Shown here: positions 8,172-22,205 of the stretch, piece by piece
How positions within the stretch are numbered: position 1 is the first letter of the stretch
Layout: each line of letters opens with the position of its first letter
DNA from: Pseudorhodobacter antarcticus
Lineage (GTDB): Bacteria; Pseudomonadota; Alphaproteobacteria; Rhodobacterales; Rhodobacteraceae
Direction: 5' to 3'
DNA: 23,484 bases
Assembly: GCA_945860375.1 (NCBI GenBank)
Contig: CAMAQR010000056.1
Coordinates: 1 to 23,484, forward strand
Notes under the pieces: generated by a model
Seen by the model: only the letters and a program-made list of their open reading frames with translations
Told to the model about the DNA's origin: nothing
Databases searched by the model: none
Program-made: the position numbers and the translations under genes

Positions 8172-8190
8172 GGCTGCGCCCTAGGCCACC

Positions 8191-8760
8191 TCACCGACCG
8201 AGATTGTAGAATTCGTCGTTGGGCCGCATGCTGGTGACATTGGCAAGTCGATTGGACATGCCAAAGAAGGCCGCGATGGCGGCGATGTCCCAGATATCCT
8301 CGTCGGAAAAGCCATGCCCTTTCAAAAGCGCGAAATCCGCATCGCCGACCTCTTGGGCGCGGGCCGAAACCTTCATCGCAAAGTCCAGCATGGCCATTTG
8401 GCGGGGGGTGAGATCGGCCTTGCGGTAGTTGATGGCGACCTGATCGGCGATCAGCGGGTTCTTGGCGCGGATCCGCAGAATGGCGCCGTGCGCCACGACG
8501 CAATACTGGCACTGGTTGGCGTTCGAGGTGGCCACCACAATCATCTCGCGCTCGGCCTTGGTGATGTCCCCTGGCTTTTCCATCAGCGCGTCGTGATAGG
8601 CAAAGAAGGCGCGGAATTCTTCGGGACGGTGGGCCAGCACCAGAAAGACATTGGGCACGAAGCCTGATTTTTCCTGCACGGCAAGGATGCGTTCCGAGAT
8701 GTCGGCAGGCATGTCCTTGATCTCGGGGACGGGAAAGCGGCTGATGGCGGGTGCGGTCAT
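8191..8760 (-). CDS. Carboxymuconolactone decarboxylase / AhpD-like peroxidase-related protein
   Basis: The 189-residue product is of the AhpD-like superfamily. These small all-helical proteins either act as thiol peroxidase reductants or catalyse decarboxylation. The redox motif CxxCxxxH is present as CQYCVVAHG (Cys84, Cys87, His91), favouring the peroxidase-related subgroup. The N-terminal EKSGFVPNVFLVLAHRPE and C-terminal DIAAIAAFFGMSNRLANV stretches are typical of that subgroup. The ATG at 8760 has AGGAG upstream; longer in-frame readings are in the CoA-transferase gene and are rejected. It follows the CaiB-like gene by 17 bp. Its role here is unclear: protection against a reactive aldehyde or thio compound is one guess. 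Confidence 0.85.
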   Translation of the reverse strand: MTAPAISRFPVPEIKDMPADISERILAVQEKSGFVPNVFLVLAHRPEEFRAFFAYHDALMEKPGDITKAEREMIVVATSNANQCQYCVVAHGAILRIRAKNPLIADQVAINYRKADLTPRQMAMLDFAMKVSARAQEVGDADFALLKGHGFSDEDIWDIAAIAAFFGMSNRLANVTSMRPNDEFYNLGR

Positions 8761-8777
8761 TTGAATCTCCTGGTGGG

Positions 8778-9956
8778 TCATTTGCCGGGCAGGACGGCGG
8801 CATAATCGGTGGGGTCGATGCCGCGTTCCTGCAGGATCTCGGCGGTGTCTTGGGAAAAGGCGGGCGGTTTGCGGCGGTAGGTGGCAGGGGTGCGCGACAG
8901 TTTGATCGGGCTGCCAGTGCTGCGATAATCGCCGATGTCGACGACCATCTCGCGGTGCAGCGTATGGGGGTCGGTGGCCGCCTGATGGATGTTGCGCACC
9001 TCGCCGCAGGGCACGCCGGCCTCGATCAACGCCTTGGCGATGGCGGCGCAGGGATGGGCAGCAAGGGCAGTTTCCAGTTCGATCTTCAGCGCGTCGCGGT
9101 TCTGGTTTCGGTTGCCGTTGGTGGCAAAGCGGGGATCCTGCGGCAAGTCTTCGCGGCCGATCAGGCGGCACAGCGTTTCAAACTGGCGGTTGTTGCCGAC
9201 GGCCAGAAAGATCGGGTCAGTCGCAGTCTGGAACGTGTCATAGGGGTAGATGTTGGGATGGGCGTTGCCCGAAGGGCCGGGAACCTTGCCCGAAAGGTAG
9301 TAGTTGGGCAGGTGCGGATGCAGCAGCGAAAAGCCCACATCGTAAAGCGCCACCTCGACGAACTGGCCTTTGCCGCTGCGGGTCCGCTCGTTCAGCGCCA
9401 TCAGGATGCCGATGACGGCGTTCAGCCCGGTCACCATATCCACCACCGGCAGGCCAACGCGCAGAGGGGTGCCCCCCGCCTCGCCGTTCACGCTCATGAT
9501 GCCGCAGGTCGCCTGAATGGCCGCGTCATAGCCCGGCAGCCCGCCATAGGGCCCGTCGCTGCCAAAGCCCGTCACGCGGGCATGGATCAGCCGGGGAAAG
9601 CGGTCCTGCAAGGCCGCGTTCGACAGGCCCCAGCGTTCCAACGTGCCCGCTTTGAAATTCTCGATGAAGACATCGGCGTCTTTCAGGAGGCGCAACAGCA
9701 GCTCCAGCCCGGCGGGTTGCGACATGTCCAGCGCCATGCCCCGCTTGTTGCGGTTCAGGCCCAGGAAATAACTGGCTGTGTCGTCCAGAAAGGGCGGGCC
9801 CCAACCGCGCGTCTCGTCGCCTTGGGGCGGTTCGACCTTGATCACATCGGCACCGTGGTCGGCCAGGATCTGGCCGGCATAGGGCCCACCCAGCACGCGG
9901 CTGGCATCAATGACCTTCAGTGAGGCCAGCGAGCCGGGGGAAAGCGTGTGGGTCAT
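8778..9956 (-). CDS. CaiB/BaiF-type (class III) CoA-transferase
   Basis: The 392-residue product is a class III CoA-transferase, which moves CoA between carboxylic acids through an aspartyl-CoA intermediate. Hallmarks are LKVIDASRVLGGPYAGQILADHGADVIKVEPP (13-44), GDETRGWGPPF, a FIENFKAGTLERWGL stretch, and GYDAAIQATCG with the catalytic Asp at about 144. The family-typical VALYDVGF and the C-terminal GVPCGEVRNI are also present, and length fits. The ATG overlaps the stop of the upstream beta subunit in an ATGA. Acid substrate unknown. In this operon an acid derived from the C2 product of nucleoside cleavage, such as a methylthio-acid, would be a logical candidate, but that is inference. Confidence 0.9.
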   Translation of the reverse strand: MTHTLSPGSLASLKVIDASRVLGGPYAGQILADHGADVIKVEPPQGDETRGWGPPFLDDTASYFLGLNRNKRGMALDMSQPAGLELLLRLLKDADVFIENFKAGTLERWGLSNAALQDRFPRLIHARVTGFGSDGPYGGLPGYDAAIQATCGIMSVNGEAGGTPLRVGLPVVDMVTGLNAVIGILMALNERTRSGKGQFVEVALYDVGFSLLHPHLPNYYLSGKVPGPSGNAHPNIYPYDTFQTATDPIFLAVGNNRQFETLCRLIGREDLPQDPRFATNGNRNQNRDALKIELETALAAHPCAAIAKALIEAGVPCGEVRNIHQAATDPHTLHREMVVDIGDYRSTGSPIKLSRTPATYRRKPPAFSQDTAEILQERGIDPTDYAAVLPGK

Positions 9957-10708
9957 GCGTCCTCGCTGGTTTCGCGCTGCAACTGGGCGGCAAAGTCGGG
10001 ATAGGTCTCAGAAAGCTCGTCCAGCACACGTCCGCGCAACAGGGCAAGGGTGGCGGCATCTGGGGGTGGCGTCGCAGCGGGTGCCGCATCATGGGCAAAG
10101 GCAAAGCCGGTGGCATCGGTGATCTCGGTCAGGTCATGGCCGGGGTGGATGCTGCGCAGGCGGAAACCGGGGCGGCTGGCATCGAAGTCGAATAGGCCAA
10201 GCCCGGTCAGCAGGGCATGCGGGCCACCGCTGCGATAGACGCCTTCCGGGCTGGTGCCGGGGGCCGAGACGAAATCCACCTTGTCGACAAAGATGCGCGG
10301 CGTGTGGTCTTCGCGAAACAGGATCACGCGAGGCACCACGAAGTACAGATAGGCCGCCCCGAAAGAGCCGGGCCAGCGCACCTTGGTCTGCGGATAGTCA
10401 CCCACCCCCACAAGGTTCACATTCCCCTGTCCGTCGATTTGCCCGCCGCTGAGGAAAAAGGCGTCGATCCGGCCCTGACCGGCGCAATCGAACAGTTCGA
10501 CCGAGCCATTGGTGAAGAAATTGTGTTTCACCGAACCCAGGATCGAGATGCGAACGCGCGGCGCACCAGCGGCTTCTTTCATGGCCCGCAGCAGCATGGC
10601 GCCAGCGGCGGGGATGGGAGAGGAGGCACCCACGGCGACATGGTGCACGCCGTCCAGCAAGCGCGCGATGGTGGTGATCAGCGTTTCGCGTGGGGTGGCG
10701 GGTTTCAT
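9953..10708 (-). CDS. CoA-transferase-family beta subunit (GctB/IpdB-like)
   Basis: The 251-residue product matches beta subunits of the glutaconate CoA-transferase / IpdAB group: VAVGASSPIPAAGAMLL (24-40), ELFDCAGQGRID, FFLSGGQIDGQGNVNLVGVGDY, RWPGSFGA and HTPRIFVDKVDFVSAPG. It partners the alpha subunit encoded just upstream (ATGA overlap). In glutaconate CoA-transferase the catalytic Glu54 lies in an IIVESG-like segment. The corresponding place here reads ISILGS (Leu57), so the nucleophile appears to be missing, as in IpdAB-type ring-opening hydrolases. The pair may therefore catalyse hydrolysis or C-C cleavage of a CoA ester rather than CoA transfer. The alignment was made from memory. 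Confidence 0.85.
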   Translation of the reverse strand: MKPATPRETLITTIARLLDGVHHVAVGASSPIPAAGAMLLRAMKEAAGAPRVRISILGSVKHNFFTNGSVELFDCAGQGRIDAFFLSGGQIDGQGNVNLVGVGDYPQTKVRWPGSFGAAYLYFVVPRVILFREDHTPRIFVDKVDFVSAPGTSPEGVYRSGGPHALLTGLGLFDFDASRPGFRLRSIHPGHDLTEITDATGFAFAHDAAPAATPPPDAATLALLRGRVLDELSETYPDFAAQLQRETSEDA

Positions 10709-11517
10709 GGTGCTGCGGCCCCCGTTTCGGCCAGATAGGCGGCAAAGCCTGCGTCGGTCTTCGCGGACCCGGCATAGCGTAAAAGTTCGCCCGTATCAGC
10801 GGGATATTCCCCCCAAAGCCCATAGGGCCAGGCCCCTTTCGGCGCGATTCCGATCGCATCGACGTATAGCGCGGGCAGGGTTCCGGCGGCCATGATTTCG
10901 GTCTCGAACAGATCGCCATCGATCACCCGCTCGACCGTAACAATGGTGCGGCGCGCGGCATAGGCCATGGTGGCCAACTCGCGCCGCCGCCCGATCCAGA
11001 CATTGCCGGCGCGGTCGGCCATCGCGGCATGGAAAATCGCGACATCGGGCTGGATCGCGGGCACCAGCACGACCGGATCGCCGCCTGGGCCAAACGGGTT
11101 GTCGATGACGCACCAGTCGGGGCGGTGGCGCAGCACATCGGTGCCGATCAACCCGCGCATGGCGCTGAAGGGCGCGCCCTTTTGCGCGGCGGTCAGCCCG
11201 GCATGGATCGCCGGGCAGGTCGAGTCCCTCAGGATAATGCTACCGTCCCTGACCGCCCGGTTGAAACAGGGCGCGCCGCCCGCCTCTCCCAATGTCATCG
11301 CGCTGGTCTCGACCGAGCGGACCAGCCCTGCGCCGATCAGCATGTCGGCCTGCAAGCCGCCGGTAGGCACGCAAACCAGATCAAGATCCCCTGCCCCGCG
11401 CGCAATCAGCGCATGGGTCATCGCCATCGACACGCCCGCGTAGTCGACCGGCAAGGCAATCTGCATCCCGGGTTCGATGAGACGGGCAAGGCTGGGAATG
11501 TCGGTTGTGGCGGGCAC
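10705..11517 (-). CDS. CoA-transferase-family alpha subunit (GctA/IpdA-like)
   Basis: The 270-residue alpha subunit of a two-subunit CoA-transferase-superfamily enzyme. Recognisable parts are LARLIEPGMQIALPVDYAGV, then DLDLVCVPTGGLQADMLIGAG (about 44-64), a FSAMRGLIGTDVLRHRPD stretch (about 117-134), VVLVPAIQPDVAIFHAAMADRAGNVWI (about 148-174) and RRTIVTVERVID. The GTG start at 11517 is supported by AGGAG ten bases upstream. The gene follows the amidohydrolase by 28 bp and overlaps the beta subunit by four. The substrate is unknown; see the beta subunit for the doubt about true CoA-transferase activity. Confidence 0.85.
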   Translation of the reverse strand: MPATTDIPSLARLIEPGMQIALPVDYAGVSMAMTHALIARGAGDLDLVCVPTGGLQADMLIGAGLVRSVETSAMTLGEAGGAPCFNRAVRDGSIILRDSTCPAIHAGLTAAQKGAPFSAMRGLIGTDVLRHRPDWCVIDNPFGPGGDPVVLVPAIQPDVAIFHAAMADRAGNVWIGRRRELATMAYAARRTIVTVERVIDGDLFETEIMAAGTLPALYVDAIGIAPKGAWPYGLWGEYPADTGELLRYAGSAKTDAGFAAYLAETGAAAP

Positions 11518-11545
11518 CCTTGGCTCCTTTCGCGGCGGGCAGGGT

Positions 11546-12880
11546 TCAGTGGGCGTGGCGGCAGGTGAACAAGGGCCGGGCGCGGTCGGCGATCTTGCGG
11601 ACGTCGTGTTTCACCCGCTCTTCGTCGATGGTGCGGACTTCCCGGTCCTCCATTACCAGACGGCCATGGATCATGGTGTGGCGCACATCGGCGGGCGATG
11701 CGGCATAGACCAGATGTGAGTAGATGTCATAGCAAGGCGTCAAATTGGCCGAGCTGAAGTCGATCACGGCAAGATCGGCCAGCTTGCCGACCTCCAGCGA
11801 TCCGATCTTGTCTGACAGGCCAAAGGCACGGGCGCCATTCACCGTCATCATGGCAAAAACCTCGGGCGCGGGCAGCACGAAAGGATCGCCAGTAACGCCC
11901 TTTTGCACCAACGCGGCCAGTTGCGCCTCGTGGAAGAAGTTCAGATCGTTGTTGGAGGCCGGACCATCGGTACCGATGGCCACGTTTACCCCGGCCCGGG
12001 TCATGTCCACCAGCCGGCTGATGCCCGAGGACAACTTCATGTTCGATGTCGGGCAATGCGAAACCGAGGTGCCGGTTTCCGCCAGCCGGGCGATCTCGGC
12101 ATCGGTCAGATGCACGCAATGCGCCAACAGGGTTTTGGGCCCCAAAAGGCCGCAATCGTCCAGAACCTCGATCGGGCTTTTGCCATATTGCGCGCTGACC
12201 TGCGCCAGTTCGCCCTTAGATTCCGCCGCATGGGTGATGAAGCCGATGCCGAAATCATGGGCGATGCGACGGACATCCTCCAGCATCGCGCGGTCGGTCG
12301 TATAGACGGAATGCGCCTGCACGCACAGATGCAGCAGGGGCTGGTTGGCATGGCGGTGCAGATAGTCATGCGCCTCTTGCAGATCGAACTGGCGGCGGTC
12401 CTCGAAACCGGGGATCGCGGCGAATACCGGGCCGTTGACGGTGCGAAAGCCCGCCTGCACCACAGCCTCGACCGAACCATCGAACTGCCAGTACATGTCG
12501 GTGGCACAGGTGGTGCCCGAGCGGATCATCTCGATCATCGCCAGATCGGCCCCAGCAATCACGGTGTCGGGGGCCACGATCTCGGCTTCGACCTTCCAGA
12601 TCTTTTCCAGCCAACCTTCCAGATTGTCGTCATCGGCAAAGCCGCGGAAAAGGGTCATCGCCCAATGGCCATGGGTGTTGACCAGACCCGGCGTGATCAC
12701 CATGCCGCTGACATTCAGGGTCTTTTTGGCGGTGAAAACCGGCATTTCGGCCTGTGGTCCCAACCAATGGATCGTCTCGCCCCTGACCGCCAGCGCGCCA
12801 TTCTCGATGATGCGCCGCCCGGCATCCATCGTGACAATGGTTGCGCCAAGCAGCAGGCAGTCTACTTCGATGGGGGTCAT
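11546..12880 (-). CDS. Amidohydrolase, MTA/SAH (5'-modified adenosine) deaminase type
   Basis: The 444-residue product is a metal-dependent hydrolase of the amidohydrolase superfamily, in the subgroup of 5-methylthioadenosine/S-adenosylhomocysteine deaminases and related chlorohydrolases. Metal and catalytic residues are visible: HGH at 70-72 in GLVNTHGHWAMTLFRG, His190 (VQAHSVYT), ITHAAE with His217 and Glu220, AHCVH at 254-257, HCPTSNMKL, and Asp305 in IGTDGPASNN. The expected reaction is deamination of MTA, 5'-deoxyadenosine or SAH to the inosine form. That suits the 6-oxopurine-type phosphorylases in the same locus. Preceded by a hairpin at 12907-12933 that may tune its expression. Other members act on guanine or triazines, so the substrate is not proven. 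Confidence 0.85.
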   Translation of the reverse strand: MTPIEVDCLLLGATIVTMDAGRRIIENGALAVRGETIHWLGPQAEMPVFTAKKTLNVSGMVITPGLVNTHGHWAMTLFRGFADDDNLEGWLEKIWKVEAEIVAPDTVIAGADLAMIEMIRSGTTCATDMYWQFDGSVEAVVQAGFRTVNGPVFAAIPGFEDRRQFDLQEAHDYLHRHANQPLLHLCVQAHSVYTTDRAMLEDVRRIAHDFGIGFITHAAESKGELAQVSAQYGKSPIEVLDDCGLLGPKTLLAHCVHLTDAEIARLAETGTSVSHCPTSNMKLSSGISRLVDMTRAGVNVAIGTDGPASNNDLNFFHEAQLAALVQKGVTGDPFVLPAPEVFAMMTVNGARAFGLSDKIGSLEVGKLADLAVIDFSSANLTPCYDIYSHLVYAASPADVRHTMIHGRLVMEDREVRTIDEERVKHDVRKIADRARPLFTCRHAH

Positions 12881-12906
12881 TTCATGGCTTTCCGCTGTTG
12901 AAGAAA

Positions 12907-12933
12907 TTCGGCGCTGTCACAGGCAGCGCCGAA
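12907..12933 (-). terminator. Intra-operon hairpin, possible attenuator
   Basis: TTCGGCGCTG (12907-12916) and CAGCGCCGAA (12924-12933) form a perfect 10 bp GC-rich stem with a seven-base loop. On the transcribed minus strand it is followed by TTTCTTC, a weak U-tract. It lies in the 74 bp gap between the ECF S-component stop and the amidohydrolase start. It could act as a partial terminator or mRNA-stabilising end, giving more transporter than downstream enzyme. Confidence 0.6.
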
Positions 12934-12954
12934 CCGGCTGTTAAGGTCGTGGCC

Positions 12955-13788
12955 TTACTCGGCCTCATCCGTAAACTGCTCGCGTCCCGAAAGCATCAGG
13001 CCCGCAATCACCAGAAGCGCCAGGAAGGGGATCATGACCACGAACAGCGTCCAGTTGCCCTGTTCGCCATCGAAGCCATAGATCGTCTGGCCAGCCGCCC
13101 CAAGGGCGACCATCGTGCCAAAGACCAGCCCGCCAAGGGCGCCGACGATCATCAGGATTGATCCAAGCGACTTGGCCTTGCCGGGGGCCACGTCTTCGAC
13201 GCTCATGATGTCGGTCCACAGAAGGCCCCAGCGTTTGACCCGCGGGTAAAGCAGCGACAGCAGGATCGGGCCGACCACGCAAACGGCGGCAAAGTTGTTC
13301 ACCGTTATGGTGATCGACAGGAAGGCAAAGGGCACCATACCAATCGAATCCGCATACCAGGCGATGATGATCGCGCAGGCCGCAGACCCGGTCAGGGCCA
13401 CGATTTCAAAGGCGATGAGCTTGCGCAAGTTGTTGGTCATTGGCGAGATGTCATTCTTGGGCACAAGGCCGAAGGTAGCCCCCCACATCTTGTAGGGCAC
13501 AAAGGCCAGAAAGAAATTGCCGATGGCGCCAAGGATCGAGCCCTGGTCCAGGGTGCCGCCAAAGATGTCGCCGACGGTGTTGCCGATGGCGGCACCCCAG
13601 GCACCGGCAGGGCCGAACAACAGCCCAAAAACCGGCGGAAAGACGTTTGCCGGGCGCACTTCGGTCACCCCCGGAACGATGGGAATCCCGCCCTTGAAGA
13701 CGATAAGGAACGCGCCGTAAATCGCCGCCGTCAAGGCCACCAGGATGATCATCCGGGTGTCCTTCCACATGGTGAATATTTCTCTCAT
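12955..13788 (-). CDS. ECF transporter S component (substrate-specific membrane subunit)
   Basis: The 277-residue integral membrane protein has about six hydrophobic segments: the N-terminal MIILVALTAAIYGAFLIVF, a FPPVFGLLFGPAGAWGAAIGNTVGDI stretch, AFEIVALTGSAACAIIIAWYA, VCVVGPILLSLLY, and two near the C-terminus. The VTEVRPANVFPP and GPAGAWGAAIGNTVGDIFGG blocks are typical of ECF S components. Start is ATG at 13788 with GGGAGAG upstream; a longer frame from 14001 begins inside the phosphorylase gene. Its T and A partners are encoded in the same operon, so this looks like a dedicated (group I) ECF system. By context the substrate is a 5'-modified nucleoside such as MTA or 5'-deoxyadenosine (inference). 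Confidence 0.8.
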   Translation of the reverse strand: MREIFTMWKDTRMIILVALTAAIYGAFLIVFKGGIPIVPGVTEVRPANVFPPVFGLLFGPAGAWGAAIGNTVGDIFGGTLDQGSILGAIGNFFLAFVPYKMWGATFGLVPKNDISPMTNNLRKLIAFEIVALTGSAACAIIIAWYADSIGMVPFAFLSITITVNNFAAVCVVGPILLSLLYPRVKRWGLLWTDIMSVEDVAPGKAKSLGSILMIVGALGGLVFGTMVALGAAGQTIYGFDGEQGNWTLFVVMIPFLALLVIAGLMLSGREQFTDEAE

Positions 13789-13841
13789 TCTTTCTCTCCC
13801 TCGTTTGTTGGTTTGAACTGTTGTTTTTGTTTTTGCCCGCC

Positions 13842-14618
13842 TCAGTCCTTGGCGGGGTGCATCACCATCACCGCATCGGCGCAGCGGCAGTCGGGTTCGG
13901 CCATCTCGCGCAGCGCATCGACCAGAAACCGTGCAAGGTTCTGCCGCGTCTCGACCATGTCTTCTTCGTGCAACTCCAGCACGTCCATGATCCCCGAACA
14001 CCAGTTGACCGAATAGGCGACGGCGGCGAAGTGCATGCCCGCCTCGCGCGCCAGAACGATCTCGGGGACGCCCGTCATGCCGACGACATCGCCGCCCAGC
14101 CGGTCATACATGCGGATCTCGGCCGGGGTTTCAAACCGCGGGCCGTTGGTGGCCACATAGACCGCGTCCGGCTTGATCGCCAGACCGCGGGCATGGGCCA
14201 GTTCCAGGATCTTGCGCCCCATGGCCGGGCAATAGGGCGCGTCCATCGCGGTATGGGCCAGACCGCTGTCACCGCCCTCAAAGAAGGTCAGCGGCCGGCC
14301 CGAGGTGAAGTTCATGAAATCGGTCAGAAGCGCCATTTCGGTCGGCCGCACCCGACGGTTGGCCGAGCCAACGGCATAGGTTGCGGCCACACGTTTCACG
14401 CCCAGCATCTGCAGGGCCTTGATATTGGCGCGGTAGTTGATGTTGTGCGGCGGGGTGCTGTGGTCCAGCCCGTGGCGGGCCAGAAAGACCAGTTCAAACC
14501 CGTCCACTGTGCCGATGTTGACCTTGGCTTGACCATAGGGCGTGTCGATGACCCGTTCCTGAAAACTCATGCCGGGAATGTCGTAGATCCCGGTTCCGGC
14601 GATGATGGCGCTATGCAT
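13842..14618 (-). CDS. MTA/MTI phosphorylase-type purine nucleoside phosphorylase (copy 1)
   Basis: The 258-residue product belongs to the trimeric PNP/MTAP family, which phosphorolyses a 5'-modified nucleoside to free base and (5-substituted) ribose-1-phosphate. Seen are AGTGIYDIPG (7-16), RHG at 48-50, PPHNINYRANIKAL (56-69), TYAVGSANRRVRPTE, GPRFETPAEI (159-168) and GMTGVPEIVLAREAGM. At the base-recognition site, where human MTAP has TDYD and human PNP has TNKV, this protein reads SVNWC (Asn205). Asparagine points to 6-oxopurines such as methylthioinosine, matching the deaminase encoded next in the operon. Placed between ecfT and the ECF S gene. A second, differently spelled phosphorylase is at 21459-22205. 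Confidence 0.9.
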   Translation of the reverse strand: MHSAIIAGTGIYDIPGMSFQERVIDTPYGQAKVNIGTVDGFELVFLARHGLDHSTPPHNINYRANIKALQMLGVKRVAATYAVGSANRRVRPTEMALLTDFMNFTSGRPLTFFEGGDSGLAHTAMDAPYCPAMGRKILELAHARGLAIKPDAVYVATNGPRFETPAEIRMYDRLGGDVVGMTGVPEIVLAREAGMHFAAVAYSVNWCSGIMDVLELHEEDMVETRQNLARFLVDALREMAEPDCRCADAVMVMHPAKD

Positions 14619-14637
14619 GTTTTTCCCTTCCGGATTT

Positions 14638-15420
14638 TCAAAACCGTGTCAGTCCGGGTATCTGGCCAATGCCCTGAAGGCGCAGCACGATCGACCCCGC
14701 GACGAACACAAGGGCAAAGCCCAGAACCAGATAATCGGCCCGTTTGAACTGCATCTGCAGGTAGTAGCTGCGCTTGTCCCGCGCGCCGAAACCCTTGGAT
14801 TCCAACGCCATGGCAAAAGTGTTGGTGTTGCGGATGGTCGAGATGAAGACCGGCACCAGAAGCGGCAGGAACCGGCGCAACCGCTCCAGCGGGTTCTTCA
14901 CGTGCAGATCCAAGCCCCGGCTGCGCTGCGCCTGACTGATGGTGATGATACTGGACCCGATGGTCGGCAACAGCCGCAACGCCGTCGACAGCGCAAATCC
15001 CACCCGGTAGGGCAGGCCGATCTTGATCAGACCCAGCACCAGTTCTTCGTTGCGGGTGGTGCTGATCAGGACCATGCCGCTGCTGATCACCAGCACGATC
15101 AGCAAGGTGCGGTTAACGGCGAACAGAAAGGATTCCACCTCGAATTTCCACCAAAGGGGCGTCACGCCGCTGGAAAAGAAATTCCACAGGATCATGCTGG
15201 ACAGCGACATCATGATCAGGATGAAACGAATGCGGCGCAGGTTGCGAAACGCGCCTGCGATGTAAAGTTGCAATAGCGACAGGCAGGTGATCGGGATCAG
15301 CCAGACCGGATGTTCAAACATCAGGATGGCCACGACGGTCAGAAAGGCCAGCGCCATCTTGGTGCGGGCATCCAGCCGGTGCATGAAGGAATTGTTGTCG
15401 ATATAGAAGTCGCCGCTCAT
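14638..15420 (-). CDS. ecfT: ECF transporter T component (EcfT)
   Basis: The 260-residue membrane protein is the scaffold that links the ATPases to the S component. The N-terminus has the usual FMHRLDARTKMALAFLTVVAILM block. The two coupling-helix motifs are present as SQAQRSRGLD and ALESKGFGARDKRS, variants of the Ala-Arg-Gly signatures that dock into the ATPase grooves. Four or five hydrophobic segments are visible. Its ATG overlaps the stop of the ATPase gene (ATGA), so the two should be translated in step. The phosphorylase starts 19 bp after its stop. Assignment to the ECF family is secure; substrate choice rests with the S component. Confidence 0.9.
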   Translation of the reverse strand: MSGDFYIDNNSFMHRLDARTKMALAFLTVVAILMFEHPVWLIPITCLSLLQLYIAGAFRNLRRIRFILIMMSLSSMILWNFFSSGVTPLWWKFEVESFLFAVNRTLLIVLVISSGMVLISTTRNEELVLGLIKIGLPYRVGFALSTALRLLPTIGSSIITISQAQRSRGLDLHVKNPLERLRRFLPLLVPVFISTIRNTNTFAMALESKGFGARDKRSYYLQMQFKRADYLVLGFALVFVAGSIVLRLQGIGQIPGLTRF

Positions 15421-17162
15421 GCCTCCATCACCCTGACGATGCAGCCTGCCATTTCTTCGGGGGTCAGGAAGGTGTGGCCCAGCCGGTTCGAGAAATCGAC
15501 GAAATGCGGTGGGCGCAGAAAGGCGTCATGCAGCCGGTCGCCATGCGAGAACACCTCGCGCGGGGTGCCTTGCAGGATCACCCTGCCCTCTTTCATCACG
15601 ATGACGCTGAGGGCATATTCGGCCACAACCCACATATGATGGGTGACAAAGATGATCGTGCTGCCTGCCTTGTTCAGCCGCTGCACAAGGTCCATCATCC
15701 CGCGCTGTTCGCTGTAATCCAGCCCCGTGGTCGGTTCGTCCAGGATCAGCACATCGGGTTTTGACGCCAGAACTGAGGCCACCGCCACCCGCTGCCGCCC
15801 GCTTTTGGTCAGCGAGAACGGGTCTTCCTTTTCCATGCCCGTCAGCCCAACCGAGGCCAGTGCCTCGGCGACCCGGGCCTTGATCTCGTCCTCGGGCAGC
15901 TTGCGCAGGCGCGAGGAAAAGGCGACCTCGTCAAAAACCGTTTCGGAAAAGATCTGATGGTCGGGGTTCTGAAAGACATAGCCGATCTTCTGGCCGATCT
16001 TGAAGATGCCCTGATCGCGTGTGGGCTTGCCATCGACCAGCACTTCGCCGCCGGTCGGCATCAGCAAGCCGTTGAAGTGCTTGGCAAGCGTGGTCTTGCC
16101 GCTGCCGTTCTGGCCCAGAATGGCCAGAACATCGCCGCGCCGCACCTCGCAGGTGACATTGTCCAGCGCCTTCAGGCCGGTGTCATAGGTGTGGTCCAGC
16201 CCGTCACAGCGGATCAGCACCTCGCCCAGACCGGCGCGGGCGGCGGCTTCGTTTTCCGCCAGCTTCTGGTAGGCCGGTGCCGAGACTTTCCAGCCCAGTT
16301 CGTTGAACCGGGCCACCCCTTCGTCAACCGTGATCGGCAGATCGGTTTCACCCATCCGTTTGAAGAAAGACGGGATGCCGAGCGGTGCCACGCCGACGCT
16401 GCGCATCAGATCGACGTCGCGCAAAACCTCGCGCGTTGGGCCAAGCCGGATCAGCCGACCGTCCTGCATCAGGGCGATCTTGTCGGCGTACAGCGCCTCT
16501 TCCGTTTCGTGTTCGATCATCATCAGGGTCGTGTCGTGATGTTCGCACAGCCGCCGGGTGATCTCGAAAACGCCCATCTTGCTGATCGGATCAAGGTCGG
16601 TGGTGGGTTCGTCCATCACCACAACGCGCGGTTTCATCGCCAGAACCGAAGCGATGGCCAGCTTCTGCTTTTGCCCCCCCGACAGGGTTGATGGCGCGCG
16701 GCCCTTCAGATGAGCGATGCCGACATAGTTGATCACCTCTTCCATCCGGGCATGCATTTCGTCGCGATCCACGCCGAAGTTTTCCATGCCAAAGGTCACC
16801 TCCAGCTCGAGGTTGGTCGAGAACAGCTGCGCTTCGAAATCCTGAAACACGATGCCGACCGTCTCGGAATTGCGCGCCACCGTGGTTTCAGTGGTCTTCT
16901 GGCCGAAGATTCGCACCTCGCCCGTGATCTTGCCCTTGAAAAAATTGGGGATCAGCCCGTTCATTGCGGCGGCCAGTGTGCTTTTTCCGGCACCGCTTGG
17001 CCCCATGACCACCAGAAACTCGCCACGGTCCAGCGACAGGGAAATGCTTTTCAGCGCCTCGGTCTTTTCTCCGCGATAGCGGTAAGTCAGGTCGGTGATC
17101 TGAACGGCTGGTTCCATGGTCACAACTCTTGCTTGCGGGGCGGCGGAAATGGCATCAGACAT
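15417..17162 (-). CDS. ecfA: ECF transporter ATPase, two ABC domains fused
   Basis: The 581-residue product carries both energy-coupling ATPase domains in one chain. Domain 1: Walker A GPSGAGKST (about 54-62), LSGGQKQ (160-166), Walker B VVVMDEP (about 180-186). Domain 2: Walker A GQNGSGKTT (350-358), signature LTKSGRQRV (451-459), Walker B LILDEP (472-477). Both have a switch histidine (IEHE, VTHH). The second signature departs from LSGGQ, as ECF ATPases sometimes do. I start at the ATG at 17162, which overlaps the aminotransferase stop by eight bases, rather than at 17219. It powers the EcfT/S transporter encoded downstream. Confidence 0.92.
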   Translation of the reverse strand: MSDAISAAPQARVVTMEPAVQITDLTYRYRGEKTEALKSISLSLDRGEFLVVMGPSGAGKSTLAAAMNGLIPNFFKGKITGEVRIFGQKTTETTVARNSETVGIVFQDFEAQLFSTNLELEVTFGMENFGVDRDEMHARMEEVINYVGIAHLKGRAPSTLSGGQKQKLAIASVLAMKPRVVVMDEPTTDLDPISKMGVFEITRRLCEHHDTTLMMIEHETEEALYADKIALMQDGRLIRLGPTREVLRDVDLMRSVGVAPLGIPSFFKRMGETDLPITVDEGVARFNELGWKVSAPAYQKLAENEAAARAGLGEVLIRCDGLDHTYDTGLKALDNVTCEVRRGDVLAILGQNGSGKTTLAKHFNGLLMPTGGEVLVDGKPTRDQGIFKIGQKIGYVFQNPDHQIFSETVFDEVAFSSRLRKLPEDEIKARVAEALASVGLTGMEKEDPFSLTKSGRQRVAVASVLASKPDVLILDEPTTGLDYSEQRGMMDLVQRLNKAGSTIIFVTHHMWVVAEYALSVIVMKEGRVILQGTPREVFSHGDRLHDAFLRPPHFVDFSNRLGHTFLTPEEMAGCIVRVMEA

Positions 17163-18540
17163 CGCGCAGGCCCTCCTGTCGAACGATGTCTTCAAGCTGG
17201 TCAAAGGCCCGGGTGACAATCGCGAACATCTCGTCGGTCTGGTCAGCGGTGATAATCAACGGCGGGCTCAGCACCAGCGCATCGCCCACGGCGCGCCCGA
17301 TCAGGCCCATGTCCTGACAGATGGCGGCCACCCGCTTGCCGATGCCGTGCTTGGGGTTGAACGGCCGCCGCGTCGCCTTGTCCGCCACCAGTTCCAGCGC
17401 CCCGATCAGGCCGATGCCCCGGGCTTCGCCCACCAGCGGGTGATCGGCCAAGGCCCTTTGATGCGCCTGAAACACCTCGCCCACACGGGCGGCATGGGCG
17501 ACGATGCCGTCTCTTTCGTAGATCTCGATCGTTTTCAGCGCAAGCGCGCAGCCGACAGGATGGGCGGTATGGGTAAAGCCATGACCGAAGGAACCCAGCT
17601 TGCGGCTTTCCTCCAGCATGGCCTGATAAAGCTCCTCTTCGATGCTGACCGCGCTGAGGGGAAAGACCCCTGAGGTGATGGCCTTGGCCATCGACACGCT
17701 GTGCGCCTGAATGCCGAAGGTTTCGCAGCCGAACATCTTGCCGGTCCGCCCGAAACCGCAGATCACTTCATCGACGATGAAGCGGATGTTATAGCGTTTC
17801 AGCACCGCCGCCACTTTGGCGAAATAGGTCTCGGGCGGCATGATAACCCCGCCTGCGCCCATGATCGGCTCGGCGATGAAGCCTGCCACCGTGTCGGGGC
17901 CTTCGCGCAGGATCAGCGCCTCCAGATCATCGGCCATACGCGAGGCGAAGTCCGCTTCGCTCTCGCCAGCTTCAGCATAGGCATAGTGATGCGGGCACGA
18001 GGTATGCAGGATGCCTGCGATGGGCAGGTCGAAATCGGTCTGGATCCCCGACAGCCCCGTCAGCGACCCCGAGGCGATGGTGACGCCGTGATAGCCCTTC
18101 TTGCGCGAGATGATCTTTTTCTTTTGCGGCCGGCCCAGCGCATTGTTCATGTACCAGGTCAGCTTGATCTGCATGTCATTCGCCTCGGACCCCGAACAGG
18201 CGTAAAGGATCTTCGAGGTCGGAACCGGCGAGATCGCCTTCAGCTTTTCGGACAGCTCGATCACGCCGTCATGCGACTTGCTAGAAAACGTGTGGGCAAA
18301 TGACAGCTTGCGCAGCGCCGCTGCACCGGCCTCGGCCAGTTCTTCGTTGCCATAGCCCAGCGAGGCGCACCAAAGCCCGGCGACCCCTTCGATATAGGGT
18401 TTGCCCCGGTCGTCATATACATGGATGCCCTGCGCTTCGTTAAAGATCTGCGGACCGGTTTCGCGGTGCTTGACCAGATTGGTATAGGGATGCAGGACGG
18501 TTTCGACGTCGCGCATGGCCATGTTGGACAAGGGGATCAT
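17155..18540 (-). CDS. Class III PLP-dependent aminotransferase
   Basis: The 461-residue product is an omega- or polyamine/beta-alanine-type aminotransferase of fold type I, class III. Marks: HPYTNL near the N-terminus, EGVAGLWCASLGYGNEELAEA (about 51-71), ACSGSEANDMQIKL (about 114-127), KKGYHGVTIASGSLTGL, GFIAEPIMGAGGV, FIVDEVICGFGRTG with Asp257, and SMAKAITSG with the PLP lysine at about 286. A TTG at 18564 would add eight residues; I prefer the ATG at 18540. It lies 27 bp after the isomerase gene. The amino donor and acceptor cannot be told. An amine- or aldehyde-handling role is plausible, because aldol cleavage of the isomerised sugar would release an aldehyde. Confidence 0.9.
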   Translation of the reverse strand: MIPLSNMAMRDVETVLHPYTNLVKHRETGPQIFNEAQGIHVYDDRGKPYIEGVAGLWCASLGYGNEELAEAGAAALRKLSFAHTFSSKSHDGVIELSEKLKAISPVPTSKILYACSGSEANDMQIKLTWYMNNALGRPQKKKIISRKKGYHGVTIASGSLTGLSGIQTDFDLPIAGILHTSCPHHYAYAEAGESEADFASRMADDLEALILREGPDTVAGFIAEPIMGAGGVIMPPETYFAKVAAVLKRYNIRFIVDEVICGFGRTGKMFGCETFGIQAHSVSMAKAITSGVFPLSAVSIEEELYQAMLEESRKLGSFGHGFTHTAHPVGCALALKTIEIYERDGIVAHAARVGEVFQAHQRALADHPLVGEARGIGLIGALELVADKATRRPFNPKHGIGKRVAAICQDMGLIGRAVGDALVLSPPLIITADQTDEMFAIVTRAFDQLEDIVRQEGLRDV

Positions 18541-18567
18541 GGCGTCACCCGGCGAGGGCTGCAACGG

Positions 18568-19593
18568 TTATTGCACATAATGCTGCTCCATCTGGTCGGC
18601 CTGAAACACGCCTTTGCTGGTGACGATAGAGGTCACCAGATGCGGCGGCGTGATGTCGAAAGCGGGATACCAGCCATGGGCCAAAGGGCTGGCGGTGCGG
18701 TGGCCCAGACAGTGCAGGCTTTCGTTCGGATCGCGGTCCTCCATCGGCACATCTTGCGGGCCGGGGGCCTTGCGGTCGGGGTCCTGAACCATCGCGGCAA
18801 AGGGCATGCCGTAGGCATGGGCCGCCAGCGCCAGTTGCAGCGTGCCAACCTTGTTGACGACATGGCCCGACATGGTCACTCGGTCCGCCGCCGTCATCAG
18901 GCGCGAGACGCGGCCCCGATCCATGGCCCAGGCGCCCATGTTGTCGGTGATGACGGTGACATCGATCCCCATCTCGGCGATGCTGTGCGCGGTCAGCCTG
19001 CTGCCTTGCAGATAGGGCCGGGTTTCGGTGCAGATCACCTTGATCCGCTTGCCCGCGCGCAGGGCCGCCGCCAGAGGTTCGATGATTGCGGATTCGCCCC
19101 AGCAATGGGTCAGCACCGTGTCGCCGTCCTGGATCAGCGTCGCAGCATGTTCGCCAAGCTGGCGCGAACGCGCGCGGCTGATTTCCCAGACGGCGTACAT
19201 GGCGGTTTCCATGCCGGCGGCAAAGTCGGCATCGGCCATGCGGCTTTCGGCTTCGGCCATCATCGCGCCGACGCCATTGGCAATCAGGTTGTTGGTGTGG
19301 CGGGTGGCAATCAACCGTGAGGCCGCCGCCTGCATCATGTCGCGCCGCGCCTGCGGGCCCAAGCCTTGGGCCATACGCGCCGCAAGGACCATGCCGGCAC
19401 TGGCGGCATAGAACGGGCCACCGCTTTGGGTGACCATCTCTTCGATGGCGCAGGCCACGTCTTCGACCGTCAGGCAGTCGACGAACAGGGTTTGAAAGGG
19501 AAAGACGCGGCGATCCAGTATCCGCACACGATCCGCCTCCAGTTTGACGCTTTGGTGCGTCAGGGTCGGCATTTCAAATTTCGGGGCGTTCAC
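18568..19593 (-). CDS. MtnA-like / eIF-2B alpha-type sugar-phosphate isomerase
   Basis: The 341-residue product belongs to the family of methylthioribose-1-phosphate isomerase (MtnA), archaeal ribose-1,5-bisphosphate isomerase and eIF-2B. Expected chemistry is aldose-1-phosphate to ketose-1-phosphate. Seen: LTHCWGES with catalytic Cys164, TETRPYLQGSRLTA (189-202), ITDNMGAW, AADRV with Asp237, VNKVGTLQLALAAHAYGMPF and PAFDITPPHLVTSIVT. It is not canonical: the MtnA VRGAPAIG loop is VTQSGGPFYAAS here, and the SRPTAVNL segment reads ATRHTNNL. The GTG at 19593 has GAGGAGG upstream, so longer frames are rejected. It is first in the large operon, facing the LysR gene. Isomerisation of 5-substituted ribose-1-phosphate is the likely job. 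Confidence 0.85.
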   Translation of the reverse strand: MNAPKFEMPTLTHQSVKLEADRVRILDRRVFPFQTLFVDCLTVEDVACAIEEMVTQSGGPFYAASAGMVLAARMAQGLGPQARRDMMQAAASRLIATRHTNNLIANGVGAMMAEAESRMADADFAAGMETAMYAVWEISRARSRQLGEHAATLIQDGDTVLTHCWGESAIIEPLAAALRAGKRIKVICTETRPYLQGSRLTAHSIAEMGIDVTVITDNMGAWAMDRGRVSRLMTAADRVTMSGHVVNKVGTLQLALAAHAYGMPFAAMVQDPDRKAPGPQDVPMEDRDPNESLHCLGHRTASPLAHGWYPAFDITPPHLVTSIVTSKGVFQADQMEQHYVQ

Positions 19594-19786
19594 GTTCTGC
19601 CTCCTCAATGAGCGCCGAAGTCGGGGCGTTACGCAGGACGGGCATCTTTGACCCGGCTGATCGCTGACCCTCCAAGGGCCGCAATGGTGCAAGTGTTGCA
19701 CGAGACAGTCGTTGCTGATACTGCTTATTAAATGACATGTTGTTGCCGTTTTGGCATCACACATCGAGGGGCCGCGATTGGAACGG
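19594..19786. promoter_or_regulatory. Divergent promoter region, operon / LysR gene
   Basis: This 193 bp gap separates the isomerase start (minus strand) from the LysR start (plus strand). It must contain the promoter for the large operon and for the regulator gene. A clear dyad sits near its middle (19687-19701). I cannot assign convincing -35/-10 elements on either strand. Confidence 0.6.
19687..19701. promoter_or_regulatory. Putative LysR-type regulator box
   Basis: GTGCAA-GTG-TTGCAC is a perfect inverted repeat and satisfies the T-N11-A rule for LysR-type binding sites (TGCAAGTGTTGCA). It lies about 94 bp upstream of the isomerase start and 86 bp upstream of the LysR start, the usual place for an autoregulated divergent operator. 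Confidence 0.6.
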
Positions 19787-20734
19787 ATGAAGGTCGAGCT
19801 TTCGCCGACACGCGTCTCACAGGCCATCTATTCGCGGTCGCTGATCTATTTCGCGTCGGTGGCAGAGACCGGGTCGATCCGCGAATCCTCGCGTCAGTTA
19901 AACGTCGCCGCCTCGGCCGTCAGCCGACAGATCGCGCAATTGCAGGACCGGCTGGGTATCAAGCTGTTCGACAATCTGGGCCATTCGCTGCGGCTGGCCC
20001 CAGCAGGCGAGGAACTGCTGCAATACTACCGGTCGATCGTCGGCGAGTTGGGGACAACCGTGGATTCCATCAGCGCGCTGCATGGGCATCGCACCGGCAC
20101 AGTGCGCATTGCAACGGTGGACAGTTTTGCCACCGCTTTTCTGGCGCGGTTGATCACCGAGTATTCGGCGCTTTATCCGTCGGTCCATATCGCGCTGTCG
20201 GTGCTGTCACTGCCCGAACTGGCGGCGCAGGTTCTGGACGGCAGTGCCGATATCGGCTTCACCTTCAACCTGCGGTCCCGCGAGGCCTTTGACGTCTTGT
20301 TCGAGACGGATTGCCCGATGGGGATCGTCGTGGCCGAAAACCATCCTCTGGCGGCCAAATCGGTGGTGACCTATGAGGATTGCATCACCTATCCCATCGG
20401 CCTCTTGCGGCCGGGCACGCCGATCCGCGCGGTGCTGGAACAGGCGGCGATGCGGGCCGGGCTGGCCTGGCCAAAATATGTCGAGGCGACCTCAATGCGG
20501 TTTCTGGAGGATCTGGCCCGGCTTGGGCGGATCGTGACCTTCCAGCCGCGCTACCCCTTCATGCCCAACCGCCAGACCGGGCCGCTGGTGTTTCGCCCGA
20601 TTGTCGATGGGCCGCGTGACAGCGATACTTTCGTGATGGTCGTTGACCGACGCCTGAACCTGCAACCCGCGCCGGCAGAATTTGCCCGTTTCGCCGCCCG
20701 TTTCCTGGCCGACCTGCCAGAGGTTGCCGACTGA
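19787..20734 (+). CDS. LysR-family transcriptional regulator
   Basis: The 315-residue product has an N-terminal winged helix-turn-helix (about 17-75: LIYFASVAETGSIRESSRQL, AASAVSRQIAQLQDRLGIKLFD, LRLAPAGEELLQYY). A periplasmic-binding-protein-like effector domain follows (from about 85: GTVRIATVDSFATAFLARLI, LDGSADIGFTFN, LGRIVTFQPRYPF). A TTG at 19751 would add 12 residues; the ATG at 19787 gives a more typical length. It is divergent from the large operon and ends five bases from the aldolase stop (convergent). It therefore probably senses a pathway nucleoside, sugar phosphate or aldehyde and controls the operon through the dyad at 19687-19701. Confidence 0.88.
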   Translation: MKVELSPTRVSQAIYSRSLIYFASVAETGSIRESSRQLNVAASAVSRQIAQLQDRLGIKLFDNLGHSLRLAPAGEELLQYYRSIVGELGTTVDSISALHGHRTGTVRIATVDSFATAFLARLITEYSALYPSVHIALSVLSLPELAAQVLDGSADIGFTFNLRSREAFDVLFETDCPMGIVVAENHPLAAKSVVTYEDCITYPIGLLRPGTPIRAVLEQAAMRAGLAWPKYVEATSMRFLEDLARLGRIVTFQPRYPFMPNRQTGPLVFRPIVDGPRDSDTFVMVVDRRLNLQPAPAEFARFAARFLADLPEVAD

Positions 20735-20739
20735 TCGTC

Positions 20740-21402
20740 CTATGCCTGCTCTGTCGGAGGTCTTTGCTGGCCATAGTTGCGAAACCGGGCCAAAACCTCG
20801 GCGATCTGATCGGCGCTTAACACCGGGGGTTCGCCCATTGGCAGGCATTTGAGGTAGAGTGCTGCCAGTTCCTCGACTGTCTCGGCCAGTTTCAGCGCAC
20901 CTGCCAGGCTGGCATGCGCCGCGATCATCCCGTGATGGGCCAGAAGGCAAGCCCGACGCCCCATCAGCGCAGTGATCGCCAGATCGGCCAGCGCCTGCGT
21001 GCCAAAGGTCGCATAGGGCGCGCAGCGGATGTCTTCCCCCCCGGCGGAGGCGATCAGGTAGTGGATCGGCGGGATGTCGCGGCCCATAATGGAAACCGCT
21101 GTCGCGTTCAGAGAATGGGTATGGACCACCGCGTTCAGATCGTCGCGCGTCCGCAGGATGTCGGCGTGGAACCGCCATTCGCTGGACGGCAAGACCGGGC
21201 CATCAAATCCGCCATCCCAGCGCATCGCCACGACCTGATCGGGTTGCAAATCCTCATATGCGATCCCGGTGGGAGAGATCAGGAAGCCTTGGCCCCACCG
21301 GACACTGATGTTGCCGGAGGTGCCCTTGGACAGACCCTTGGCCTGCATGTCGAGGCAGGTCTGAACCACCAACCGGCGCAGTTCGGTTTCCTGATTGGTC
21401 AT
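20740..21402 (-). CDS. Class II (FucA/Ald2-like) sugar-phosphate aldolase
   Basis: The 220-residue product is a zinc-dependent aldolase of the L-fuculose-1-phosphate type. Phosphate-binding GTSGN (27-31) and SPTG (43-46), catalytic Glu75 in SSEWRFHADI, and zinc ligands in VVHTHS (His94, His96) and AHHGMI (His157) are all present, with normal length. ATG at 21402 has GAGGAA upstream. Known relatives cleave ketose-1-phosphates to DHAP plus an aldehyde. In the DHAP shunt of E. coli and Rhodospirillum rubrum an enzyme of this type cleaves 5-deoxyribulose- or 5-methylthioribulose-1-phosphate. The MtnB dehydratase has the same fold and is the main alternative. The phosphorylase gene 56 bp upstream supports the salvage role. 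Confidence 0.88.
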   Translation of the reverse strand: MTNQETELRRLVVQTCLDMQAKGLSKGTSGNISVRWGQGFLISPTGIAYEDLQPDQVVAMRWDGGFDGPVLPSSEWRFHADILRTRDDLNAVVHTHSLNATAVSIMGRDIPPIHYLIASAGGEDIRCAPYATFGTQALADLAITALMGRRACLLAHHGMIAAHASLAGALKLAETVEELAALYLKCLPMGEPPVLSADQIAEVLARFRNYGQQRPPTEQA

Positions 21403-21458
21403 CTTGCCGTTCCTCTTTCAAAGGTGCTGATACTGCGGTCGCGACCAGACCGGAAAGA

Positions 21459-22205
21459 TCAGCGGCCCTGCCCTGCAAAGACCGTCAGGATTTTCAGGAT
21501 CCGCGCAAGTGCCGCCGTCCGCGTTGTTACCAGTTCGGCACGGCTGATCTCAAACCGGCTGTCGCCAATGCCCGCAGCGTGGTTCACGATCGGGCAGATC
21601 GCGGCATAGCCGATGCCCAGTTCGCGGGCCAGTGCCGCTTCGGGCATGCCGGTCTGGCCGACCAGATCGCAGCCATCCCGCGCCAGCTTTGCCACCTCGG
21701 CCGCGGTCTCCAGCCTTGGCCCGTTGCAGCAGCCATAGCAGCCACCGTCGGCGATGCCTTCCCCGGCAAGCAGCGCCGCCGCCAGAATGCGCTGGCGCAG
21801 CGCGTCCGAATAGGGCTGGGTGAAATCGACGTGGCGGACCGGTTTGCCATCCGTCCCGTCGTGATAGGTGCCGATCCGGCCGTGCGAATAGTCGATGATC
21901 TGATCCGGCAGGACAAGCACGCCCGGCCCGAAATCGCCCCTTATGCCGCCGCAGGTCGCGATGGACACCACCTGCGTCACGCCCAGTTCCTGCAAAGCCC
22001 AAAGGTTGGCCCGATAGTTGATCTTGTGTGGTGCCAGCGCATGCGGGTCGCCGTGGCGCGGCAGAAAGGCGATCTCGCGGCCACCGATCAAACCAATCGA
22101 GACAGCGCTGGACGGATCGCCGTAAGGGGTGGTCAGCTTTTCCGTTCGGACCGATGTCAGGTTCGGCAGGCTGGTGATATGGGTGCCACCGATCACTGCG
22201 TCCAT
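21459..22205 (-). CDS. Methylthioinosine phosphorylase-like enzyme (copy 2)
   Basis: The 248-residue product is of the trimeric PNP/MTAP family and reads most like the 6-oxopurine-specific methylthioinosine phosphorylase of Pseudomonas. Visible are AVIGGTHIT (3-11, where most members have GGTGL), TPYGDPS, RHG at 50-52, PHKINYRANLWALQELG (59-75), VLPDQIIDYSHGR, NGPRLETAAEVAKL (161-174), GQTGMPEAALARELGIGYA and PIVNHAAG with Asn208 at the base-recognition position. Start: ATG at 22205 with GGGAGG upstream; a frame to 22325 would add 40 unconserved residues. The gene is followed by the aldolase in the same direction, so phosphorolysis and cleavage are paired in one transcript. Confidence 0.9.
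   Translation of the reverse strand: MDAVIGGTHITSLPNLTSVRTEKLTTPYGDPSSAVSIGLIGGREIAFLPRHGDPHALAPHKINYRANLWALQELGVTQVVSIATCGGIRGDFGPGVLVLPDQIIDYSHGRIGTYHDGTDGKPVRHVDFTQPYSDALRQRILAAALLAGEGIADGGCYGCCNGPRLETAAEVAKLARDGCDLVGQTGMPEAALARELGIGYAAICPIVNHAAGIGDSRFEISRAELVTTRTAALARILKILTVFAGQGR

Follow-up and report, generated by a model that had tools for sequence, protein, structure and literature searches.

A QueT-family ECF transporter linked to putative salvage enzymes for SAM-derived nucleosides in Pseudorhodobacter antarcticus and other phyla

Enzymatic routes that consume 5'-methylthioadenosine (MTA) are already known. In the dihydroxyacetone phosphate (DHAP) shunt, reported for the clusters mtnK-mtnA-ald2 of E. 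coli and mtnP-mtnA-ald2 of R. rubrum and R. palustris and for the 5-deoxyribose cluster of B. thuringiensis, an isomerase and a class II aldolase break down a 5-substituted ribulose-1-phosphate, with DHAP and an aldehyde as products (PMC10986504, PMC12632272, PMC6079011, PMC5893883). P. aeruginosa, with an MTA deaminase and a 5'-methylthioinosine (MTI) phosphorylase, and M. jannaschii, by its MtiP route, deaminate the nucleoside and then phosphorolyse the inosine form (PMC6302742); the passages of that paper on these steps tie neither an importer nor a class II aldolase to them, and the term "ECF" (energy-coupling factor) does not occur in its main text. ECF transporters of the QueT and QrtT type are known for queuosine precursors: queT is a reported preQ1 ECF transporter gene (PMC11625349), and one QrtT of C. 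difficile is reported to take up preQ1, queuine and queuosine (Q; PMC11130926). Here we analyzed a 23,484-nt stretch of DNA (the window) from the freshwater alphaproteobacterium Pseudorhodobacter antarcticus (Rhodobacteraceae; assembly GCA_945860375.1, contig CAMAQR010000056.1, positions 1-23,484, forward strand), in which a QueT-family ECF transporter is encoded among a deaminase, two phosphorylases, an MtnA-like isomerase and a class II aldolase.

We propose that this locus probably encodes a variant of the DHAP shunt in which entry is via inosine forms and nucleosides derived from S-adenosylmethionine (SAM) are supplied by a QueT-family ECF importer. The transporter (QueT-family S, T and a fused ATPase, A) would import a 5'-modified adenosine from SAM use, most likely MTA and/or 5'-deoxyadenosine, which the deaminase would convert to its inosine form. 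Two phosphorylases with Asn at the purine site would then release hypoxanthine to give a 5-substituted ribose-1-phosphate, a loop-deleted MtnA-like enzyme would convert this to the ribulose-1-phosphate, and the class II aldolase would yield DHAP plus (methylthio)acetaldehyde or acetaldehyde. Deamination ahead of phosphorolysis is the likeness to the P. aeruginosa and M. jannaschii routes; the isomerase-aldolase cleavage, and a phosphorylase entry as in the mtnP form, are the likeness to the reported DHAP shunt. The window differs from that shunt in entering by deamination and Asn-type phosphorylases, in its loop-deleted isomerase, and in having an ECF importer where a putative permease is reported for E. 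coli and putative sugar transporters for some other clusters (PMC12632272, PMC6079011). More broadly, and a little less firmly, we favor the view that the QueT-like S clade comprises importers of MTA, 5'-deoxyadenosine and S-adenosylhomocysteine (SAH) in Bacteria and haloarchaea, with alternative enzyme sets (deaminase-phosphorylase-isomerase-aldolase, or adenosylhomocysteinase, which in the single genome checked is an additional copy) and an isomerase with a substrate of its own. The transporter specificity is possibly new: among the titles and abstract openings listed by literature searches that covered few subscription papers and no older surveys of ECF S components, and whose lists were in part capped, none links an ECF transporter to uptake of MTA, 5'-deoxyadenosine or SAH, and in passages of PMC11477304, PMC11625349 and PMC3766115 ECF and nucleoside terms appear in separate contexts.

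A first-pass annotation of the window had tied these enzymes to a dedicated importer, and comparison across phyla supports this. An alignment of 20 S components, used as the query against genome contigs, gave 191 relatives; our counts refer to the 80 of these loci that were returned, in which gene presence was scored by tblastn (bits > 60), with some gene calls made by codon usage. EcfA was present in 72 of these S loci, EcfT in 70, a phosphorylase in 46, the isomerase in 41, the deaminase in 37 and the aldolase in 19. The importer, deaminase, 6-oxopurine-type phosphorylase and isomerase (the aldolase less often) thus recur together in different phyla. A phosphorylase was found in 32/33 Chloroflexota, 7/14 Bacillota, 5/6 Spirochaetota, 1/2 Thermodesulfobacteriota and 1/2 Pseudomonadota loci (L002, of the window's own lineage), and in 0/10 Actinomycetota and 0/4 Synergistota. 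It lay on the strand of the S gene in 46 of 46 cases, no more than 1.5 kb away in 39 of them, and was placed between the T and S genes in 37 of the 80 loci; the run EcfA-EcfT-MtnA-phosphorylase-EcfS-deaminase, with or without further genes, occurred 21 times. Because related S components in other phyla adjoin the same enzymes, the linkage of importer and salvage enzymes exceeds chance. Strains with related S loci include Thermanaerothrix daxensis GNS-1, Ornatilinea apprima P3M-1, Caldanaerobacter subterraneus DSM 13054 and Rubrobacter taiwanensis.

Other genes recur at these loci as well, including an RpiR-type regulator (16 of 80), a pyridoxal phosphate (PLP) enzyme resembling methionine gamma-lyase (15; 7 Bacillota, 5 Spirochaetota, 3 Chloroflexota) and adenosylhomocysteinase (11). 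The best NCBIfam match of the PLP enzyme in locus L057 was methionine gamma-lyase, at a score of 460 (under the cut-off of 550); L057 and L058 also encode a zinc alcohol dehydrogenase-type enzyme that falls below every cut-off shown. O-acetylhomoserine sulfhydrylase can reportedly recapture methanethiol in the DHAP-methanethiol shunt of R. palustris (PMC5893883), and by analogy the PLP enzyme would fit sulfur recovery in such a shunt. Its presence would favor MTA over 5'-deoxyadenosine as the substrate at those loci; because the window has no gene for it, either nucleoside is possible there.

A different enzyme follows transporters of the same family in Actinomycetota. These loci, which came from the same search under the same thresholds and serve as an inner control, contained no phosphorylase; instead, adenosylhomocysteinase was encoded just after S in 10 of 10, behind A-T-S on the same strand and within 1.5 kb, an arrangement also present in one of six Spirochaetota loci. 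The enzymes of L039 (600) and of the Treponema locus L073 (577) scored over the NF004005 cut-off of 275. In Rubrobacter taiwanensis, the transporter-linked adenosylhomocysteinase is one of two full copies, the other being 56% identical. By their own annotation, both haloarchaeal plasmid records examined have genes for QueT, the ECF ATPase, ECF T and adenosylhomocysteinase in this order, and one of them has a small hypothetical gene on the opposite strand interposed. The adenosylhomocysteinase-linked loci comprise L039:7447-12094 and nine more from Actinomycetota, L073 (a Treponema bin), and the two haloarchaeal plasmid loci L152:8001-13107 and L153:8001-13089.

Entry through the inosine form, as first supposed for the window, is supported by the predicted purine site of the phosphorylases. 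In HMMER alignments, both window phosphorylases have an Asn aligned to the Asn of 3ozb, which we take to be the P. aeruginosa MTI phosphorylase, and to the Asp of 1v4n and 1cb0, presumably archaeal and human MTA phosphorylases (MTAPs), respectively. Asn or Asp at this position sets the preference for 6-oxo versus 6-amino purines. Asn occupied this position in every one of the 47 phosphorylase rows adjoining S (of which 46 are independent, since L001 and L002 are one contig), whereas Asp was present in 18 of 18 sampled housekeeping MTAPs of Rhodobacteraceae (the other loci among 20 returned, of 217 family genomes with a match). As a residue pattern, this contrast fits an inosine route. A deaminase match accompanied the Asn phosphorylase in 36 of 46 S loci. 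Both phosphorylases had been called MTI-type; both are indeed Asn-type, and the one that we call MTIP2 exceeds the curated S-methyl-5'-thioinosine phosphorylase cut-off (NF006599), while phosphorylase-1 falls short of it (Table 1). In the nearest genome of our comparison set (G001, ~630 contigs; the window's own assembly lies outside the set), the two phosphorylases of the cassette were the only ones found with a threshold of E up to 1e-20, and an MTAP-type match is present in 217 of 248 family genomes.

The isomerase belongs to the MtnA fold by Pfam family and by one of two MtnA-related models (Table 1), as first described, but its canonical loops are changed. Relative to canonical rows, window-type isomerases lack seven residues after the Cys of [LM]T[MHQ]C (LTHC in the window) in all aligned rows, and the NTGxLAT loop is missing from all printed rows. 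At the place where VRGAP[AL]IG stands in 6 of 6 canonical rows, 12 of the 13 window-type rows printed have TQ[GS][GN]GP (one is cut there). The Cys, the Asp position and NK[IV]GT are retained; the Cys and Asp of MtnA are catalytic. A quick tree separated 43 loop-deleted from 9 canonical rows by a branch starred at 100, with long-branch warnings, with labels set by the best-matching query and with some of the 43 rows being overlapping fetches of one gene. Judged by these alignments, the cassette isomerase is a loop-deleted MtnA-fold subfamily and not canonical MtnA. Members include the window enzyme (18568-19572) and those of L003, L051 and L059; L051 and L059 hold a canonical MtnA in the same cassette too. 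The match to the DHAP shunt appears to hold for the phosphorylase entry genes and, by family, for the class II aldolase; for the isomerase the picture is mixed, with one MtnA-related score over and one under its cut-off, the Cys and Asp kept and two loops changed.

The ECF complement of the window is complete, with matches to PF06177 (S), PF02361 (T) and, twice in one chain, TIGR04520 (ATPase). The S component is above the Pfam QueT cut-off (Table 1). This family covers residues 15-181, and two further helices (206-230 and 246-265) are predicted by an AlphaFold2 model built from 50 diverse sequences (pLDDT 91.8; an earlier one, built from 20 close sequences, reached pLDDT 56.5 and was set aside). 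Foldseek comparison of the model to solved folds gave the S components ThiT (0.99), RibU (0.84-0.90) and FolT (0.77) as top matches by probability, with weak E-values, and no sequence relative of the S component was found in the PDB at E up to 10. Control by preQ1 riboswitches is known for part of the QueT family. In 53 of the 80 S loci scanned for RNA elements, we found T-box leaders, tRNAs and one cobalamin riboswitch only, and the window itself has no SAM, SAH or preQ1 riboswitch at gathering score. No recognisable queuosine genes were present among the listed neighbor families of the S loci, for which no systematic search was made. The window S component shares PF06177 with QueT, and a QrtT reportedly imports a modified purine nucleoside, Q (PMC11130926); points of difference are the neighboring genes, for putative SAM-by-product enzymes, the absence of a preQ1 riboswitch in the 53 loci scanned and, in the window S component, the two extra predicted helices.

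Conserved co-occurrence of the genes across Rhodobacterales, which had been put forward as a check, was not observed, because the S component was found only in G001 among the genomes examined (1 of 61 near and class-level genomes, 1 of 248 of the family and 1 of 398 of the phylum). It does occur beyond that genome: a large protein database has a further ten clusters of S proteins (P0002-P0011) that are 88-94% identical, including one named Paracoccaceae. We rejected G001:C59 (L179) as a second cluster, as it looks like a strain variant of the same one. Farther relatives of S (70-76%) and of phosphorylase-1 (60-70%) were Chloroflexota wherever a name tells the organism (best 120 of each, most nameless). 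Quick trees, with rows sampled by S and titles that are in many cases Anaerolineae names and in others give the phylum only, placed the window and L002 in a starred set of 30 S rows with 27 Chloroflexota and one Thermodesulfobacteriota bin; the corresponding starred sets contained 4/6 (deaminase), 11/13 (phosphorylase-1) and 10/12 (T) Chloroflexota rows. MTIP2, the aldolase, CoaA, CoaB, CaiB and CMD are 63-89% identical to Rhodobacteraceae genes, and the isomerase shares full-length identity of 64% with one in genome G143 and 62% with another. By tree and identity, the window appears chimeric, in that the S, T, deaminase and phosphorylase-1 genes fall with Chloroflexota while the others resemble Rhodobacteraceae genes. 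With front-end trees pointing to Chloroflexota and back-end identities to Rhodobacteraceae, it seems to combine an uptake front end acquired by transfer with native genes behind it. We infer that the ECF, deaminase and phosphorylase-1 genes probably came from a Chloroflexota-like donor and were joined to a Rhodobacteraceae back end of MTIP2, isomerase, aldolase and CoA-transferase module.

The remaining operon genes had been suggested to process the C2 product, a suggestion to which the 80 cross-phylum S loci lend no support. CoaA, CoaB and CaiB were present in only one (L002), CMD in none, and an aminotransferase match in two (L002, and L045 at 30%); we rejected the CoA-transferase, CMD and aminotransferase genes as members of the uptake cassette because they are nearly absent outside L002. 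A downstream role is possible because CoaA, CoaB and CaiB lie beside the aldolase in 4 of 4 Rhodobacteraceae clusters with the closest aldolases (CMD in 3 of 4). The CoaA-CoaB-CaiB set is no marker of the pathway, since it is also present without an aldolase match in L181, L182 and L184. L113-L116 carry the aldolase with CoaA, CoaB, CaiB, a thiamine pyrophosphate (TPP) enzyme and a BisC-type reductase, and L114-L116 also an FGGY kinase and CMD; the BisC protein of L114 is over the TIGR00509 cut-off (1044 versus 1018). In G143 (L149, L113), a single run contains an ABC transporter (by eye), an isomerase, a TPP enzyme, CoaA, CoaB, CaiB, a BisC-type reductase, a second isomerase, MTIP2 and the aldolase, with no ECF match in the run. 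A module of CoA-transferase A/B and a BisC-type S/N-oxide reductase, mostly also with CMD, TPP enzyme, CaiB, class II aldolase and FGGY kinase, recurs in alphaproteobacteria (L113-L116, L149, L180).

Every gene of the first-pass inventory, a minus-strand operon plus a neighboring unit, was found in place (Table 1). From 19572 to 8191, the operon order is isomerase, aminotransferase, ECF ATPase, T, phosphorylase-1, S, deaminase, CoaA, CoaB, CaiB, CMD. Co-transcription is likely, as predicted from gene spacing, because with the chosen starts operon neighbors lie from an 8-base overlap to 74 bases apart. The aldolase/MTIP2 unit, both genes on the minus strand, sits beyond the divergent LysR gene. 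Elsewhere in the window, a DUF1989 gene of the urea-amidolyase-associated type (7457-8209) matches positions 2-101 of the 168 of the Pfam model and is possibly a broken remnant, and 2410-6126 holds genes resembling those of sugar biosynthesis, which encode a WecE-type aminotransferase and glycosyltransferase-like and hexapeptide proteins; a BKACE-family gene lies among them.

Table 1 Genes of the transporter-salvage locus in the window, with model scores and nearest structures.
Feature	Position	Strand	Basis
CMD/AhpD-like, peroxidase-related	8191-8760	-	TIGR01926 222 vs cut-off 81.8
CoA-transferase family III (CaiB/BaiF; "CaiB")	8778-9956	-	PF02515
CoA-transferase family I, subunit B like ("CoaB")	9953-10708	-	PF01144
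CoA-transferase family I, subunit A like ("CoaA")	10705-11517	-	PF01144
MTA/SAH-deaminase-type amidohydrolase	11546-12880	-	PF01979; nearest PDB chain 4f0r, named 5-methylthioadenosine/S-adenosylhomocysteine deaminase
ECF S component, Pfam QueT family, C-terminal extension	12955-13788	-	PF06177 53.6 vs cut-off 33.7
Phosphorylase-1, MTAP/MTIP family, Asn-type	13842-14618	-	TIGR01694 218 vs 275, NF006599 212 vs 223 (both under); Asn205
ECF T component	14638-15420	-	PF02361 86 bits
ECF ATPase, two fused ATP-binding domains	15417-17162	-	TIGR04520 460 vs cut-off 315, two stretches
Class III aminotransferase	17155-18540	-	NF004767 655 vs cut-off 517; 8-base overlap with ATPase gene
MtnA-like isomerase, loop-deleted subfamily	18568-19572	-	PF01008; TIGR00512 208.5 (under 279); PRK05720 272.4 (over 271)
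LysR-family regulator, divergent from isomerase operon	19751-20734	+	PF00126, PF03466
Class II (FucA-like) aldolase, proposed Ald2-type	20740-21402	-	PF00596 168 bits; nearest PDB chains 7x78, 1fua (L-fuculose phosphate aldolases; 1fua presumably E. coli FucA)
S-methyl-5'-thioinosine phosphorylase (MTIP2)	21459-22205	-	NF006599 328.8 vs cut-off 223; nearest PDB chain 3ozb

Several results weigh against an importer-fed DHAP shunt. The aldolase that would complete it was present in just 19 of the 80 S loci, including 11 of 33 Chloroflexota, and 22 of the 80 (among them 4/4 Synergistota and 6 Bacillota) have no phosphorylase, isomerase, deaminase or adenosylhomocysteinase, 12 of these on stretches longer than 15 kb. 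Within the window, none of the NCBIfam models shown (25 for deaminase and aldolase) is matched above its cut-off by the deaminase, phosphorylase-1 or the aldolase, and the isomerase is without two canonical MtnA loops. No deaminase was seen in 10 of the 46 Asn-phosphorylase loci, five of them at least 11 kb long (L007, L010, L055, L066, L077), and two deaminase matches are doubtful (L060, at 27%, and L053, on the opposite strand); relatives of the deaminase, the closest at 37%, are encoded elsewhere in the Halanaerobium genome that contains L066. The best Foldseek E-value for the S model was 0.054, with unrelated membrane proteins in the same match list, and none of the 53 loci scanned had a riboswitch for SAM, SAH or preQ1 at gathering score. 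The 12 longer loci without salvage genes or adenosylhomocysteinase are L042, L050, L056, L061, L065, L071, L072, L075 and L078-L081; an enolase-superfamily-like neighbor (by eye) is common to L056, L065, L068 and L079.

Those 22 loci without any salvage gene would agree with a transporter for ordinary purine nucleosides (adenosine, inosine) or for a queuosine precursor, lying near enzymes of general nucleoside salvage. The Pfam QueT assignment of S and the reported substrates of queT and QrtT transporters (preQ1, queuine and Q; PMC11625349, PMC11130926) are also in line with this, as is the motif SCISNMA in the phosphorylases of S loci L059 and L076, which looks like that of purine nucleoside phosphorylases by eye. 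We nevertheless consider it unlikely, given adenosylhomocysteinase behind the transporter in 13 records from two domains of life and the lack of a preQ1 riboswitch in 53 S loci; moreover, we know of no part for an MtnA-type isomerase or a FucA-type aldolase in ordinary purine salvage. It is also possible, though on balance doubtful, that the importer feeds a route that does not end in (methylthio)acetaldehyde or acetaldehyde. The isomerase would then have another sugar phosphate as its substrate, and an unusual 5-substituted sugar would be processed by the products of the CoA-transferase, aminotransferase and CMD genes together with those of the TPP and S/N-oxide-reductase genes of relatives. 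The isomerase subfamily, on one side of the starred branch and missing the NTGxLAT loop, would suit such a route, as would the presence of both isomerase types in L051 and L059 and the company of the aldolase in L113-L116 (CoaA, CoaB, CaiB, TPP enzyme, BisC-type reductase) and L114-L116 (FGGY kinase, CMD). Against it stand the isomerase Cys and Asp positions, which are kept, the methionine-type PLP enzyme in 15 of 80 S loci, and the CoaA-CoaB-CaiB sets of L181, L182 and L184 that have no aldolase match. Finally, transfer could have assembled functionally separate neighbors (ECF transporter, nucleoside unit, aldolase/CoA unit), as a chimeric window and an S gene rare in the family might suggest. 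We consider this very improbable, given that 37 of 80 loci have the phosphorylase gene flanked by those for T and S and that G143 has MTIP2 together with isomerase and aldolase.

If the QueT-like S clade does import MTA, 5'-deoxyadenosine and SAH, many transporters annotated for queuosine-precursor import would instead take up leftovers of methylation, polyamine synthesis and radical-SAM chemistry. A defined, loop-deleted isomerase subfamily becomes available for assay. SAM-derived nucleosides would then be a shared carbon, nitrogen and sulfur nutrient, and these loci would provide a genetic handle on cross-feeding between cells via MTA, 5'-deoxyadenosine and SAH.

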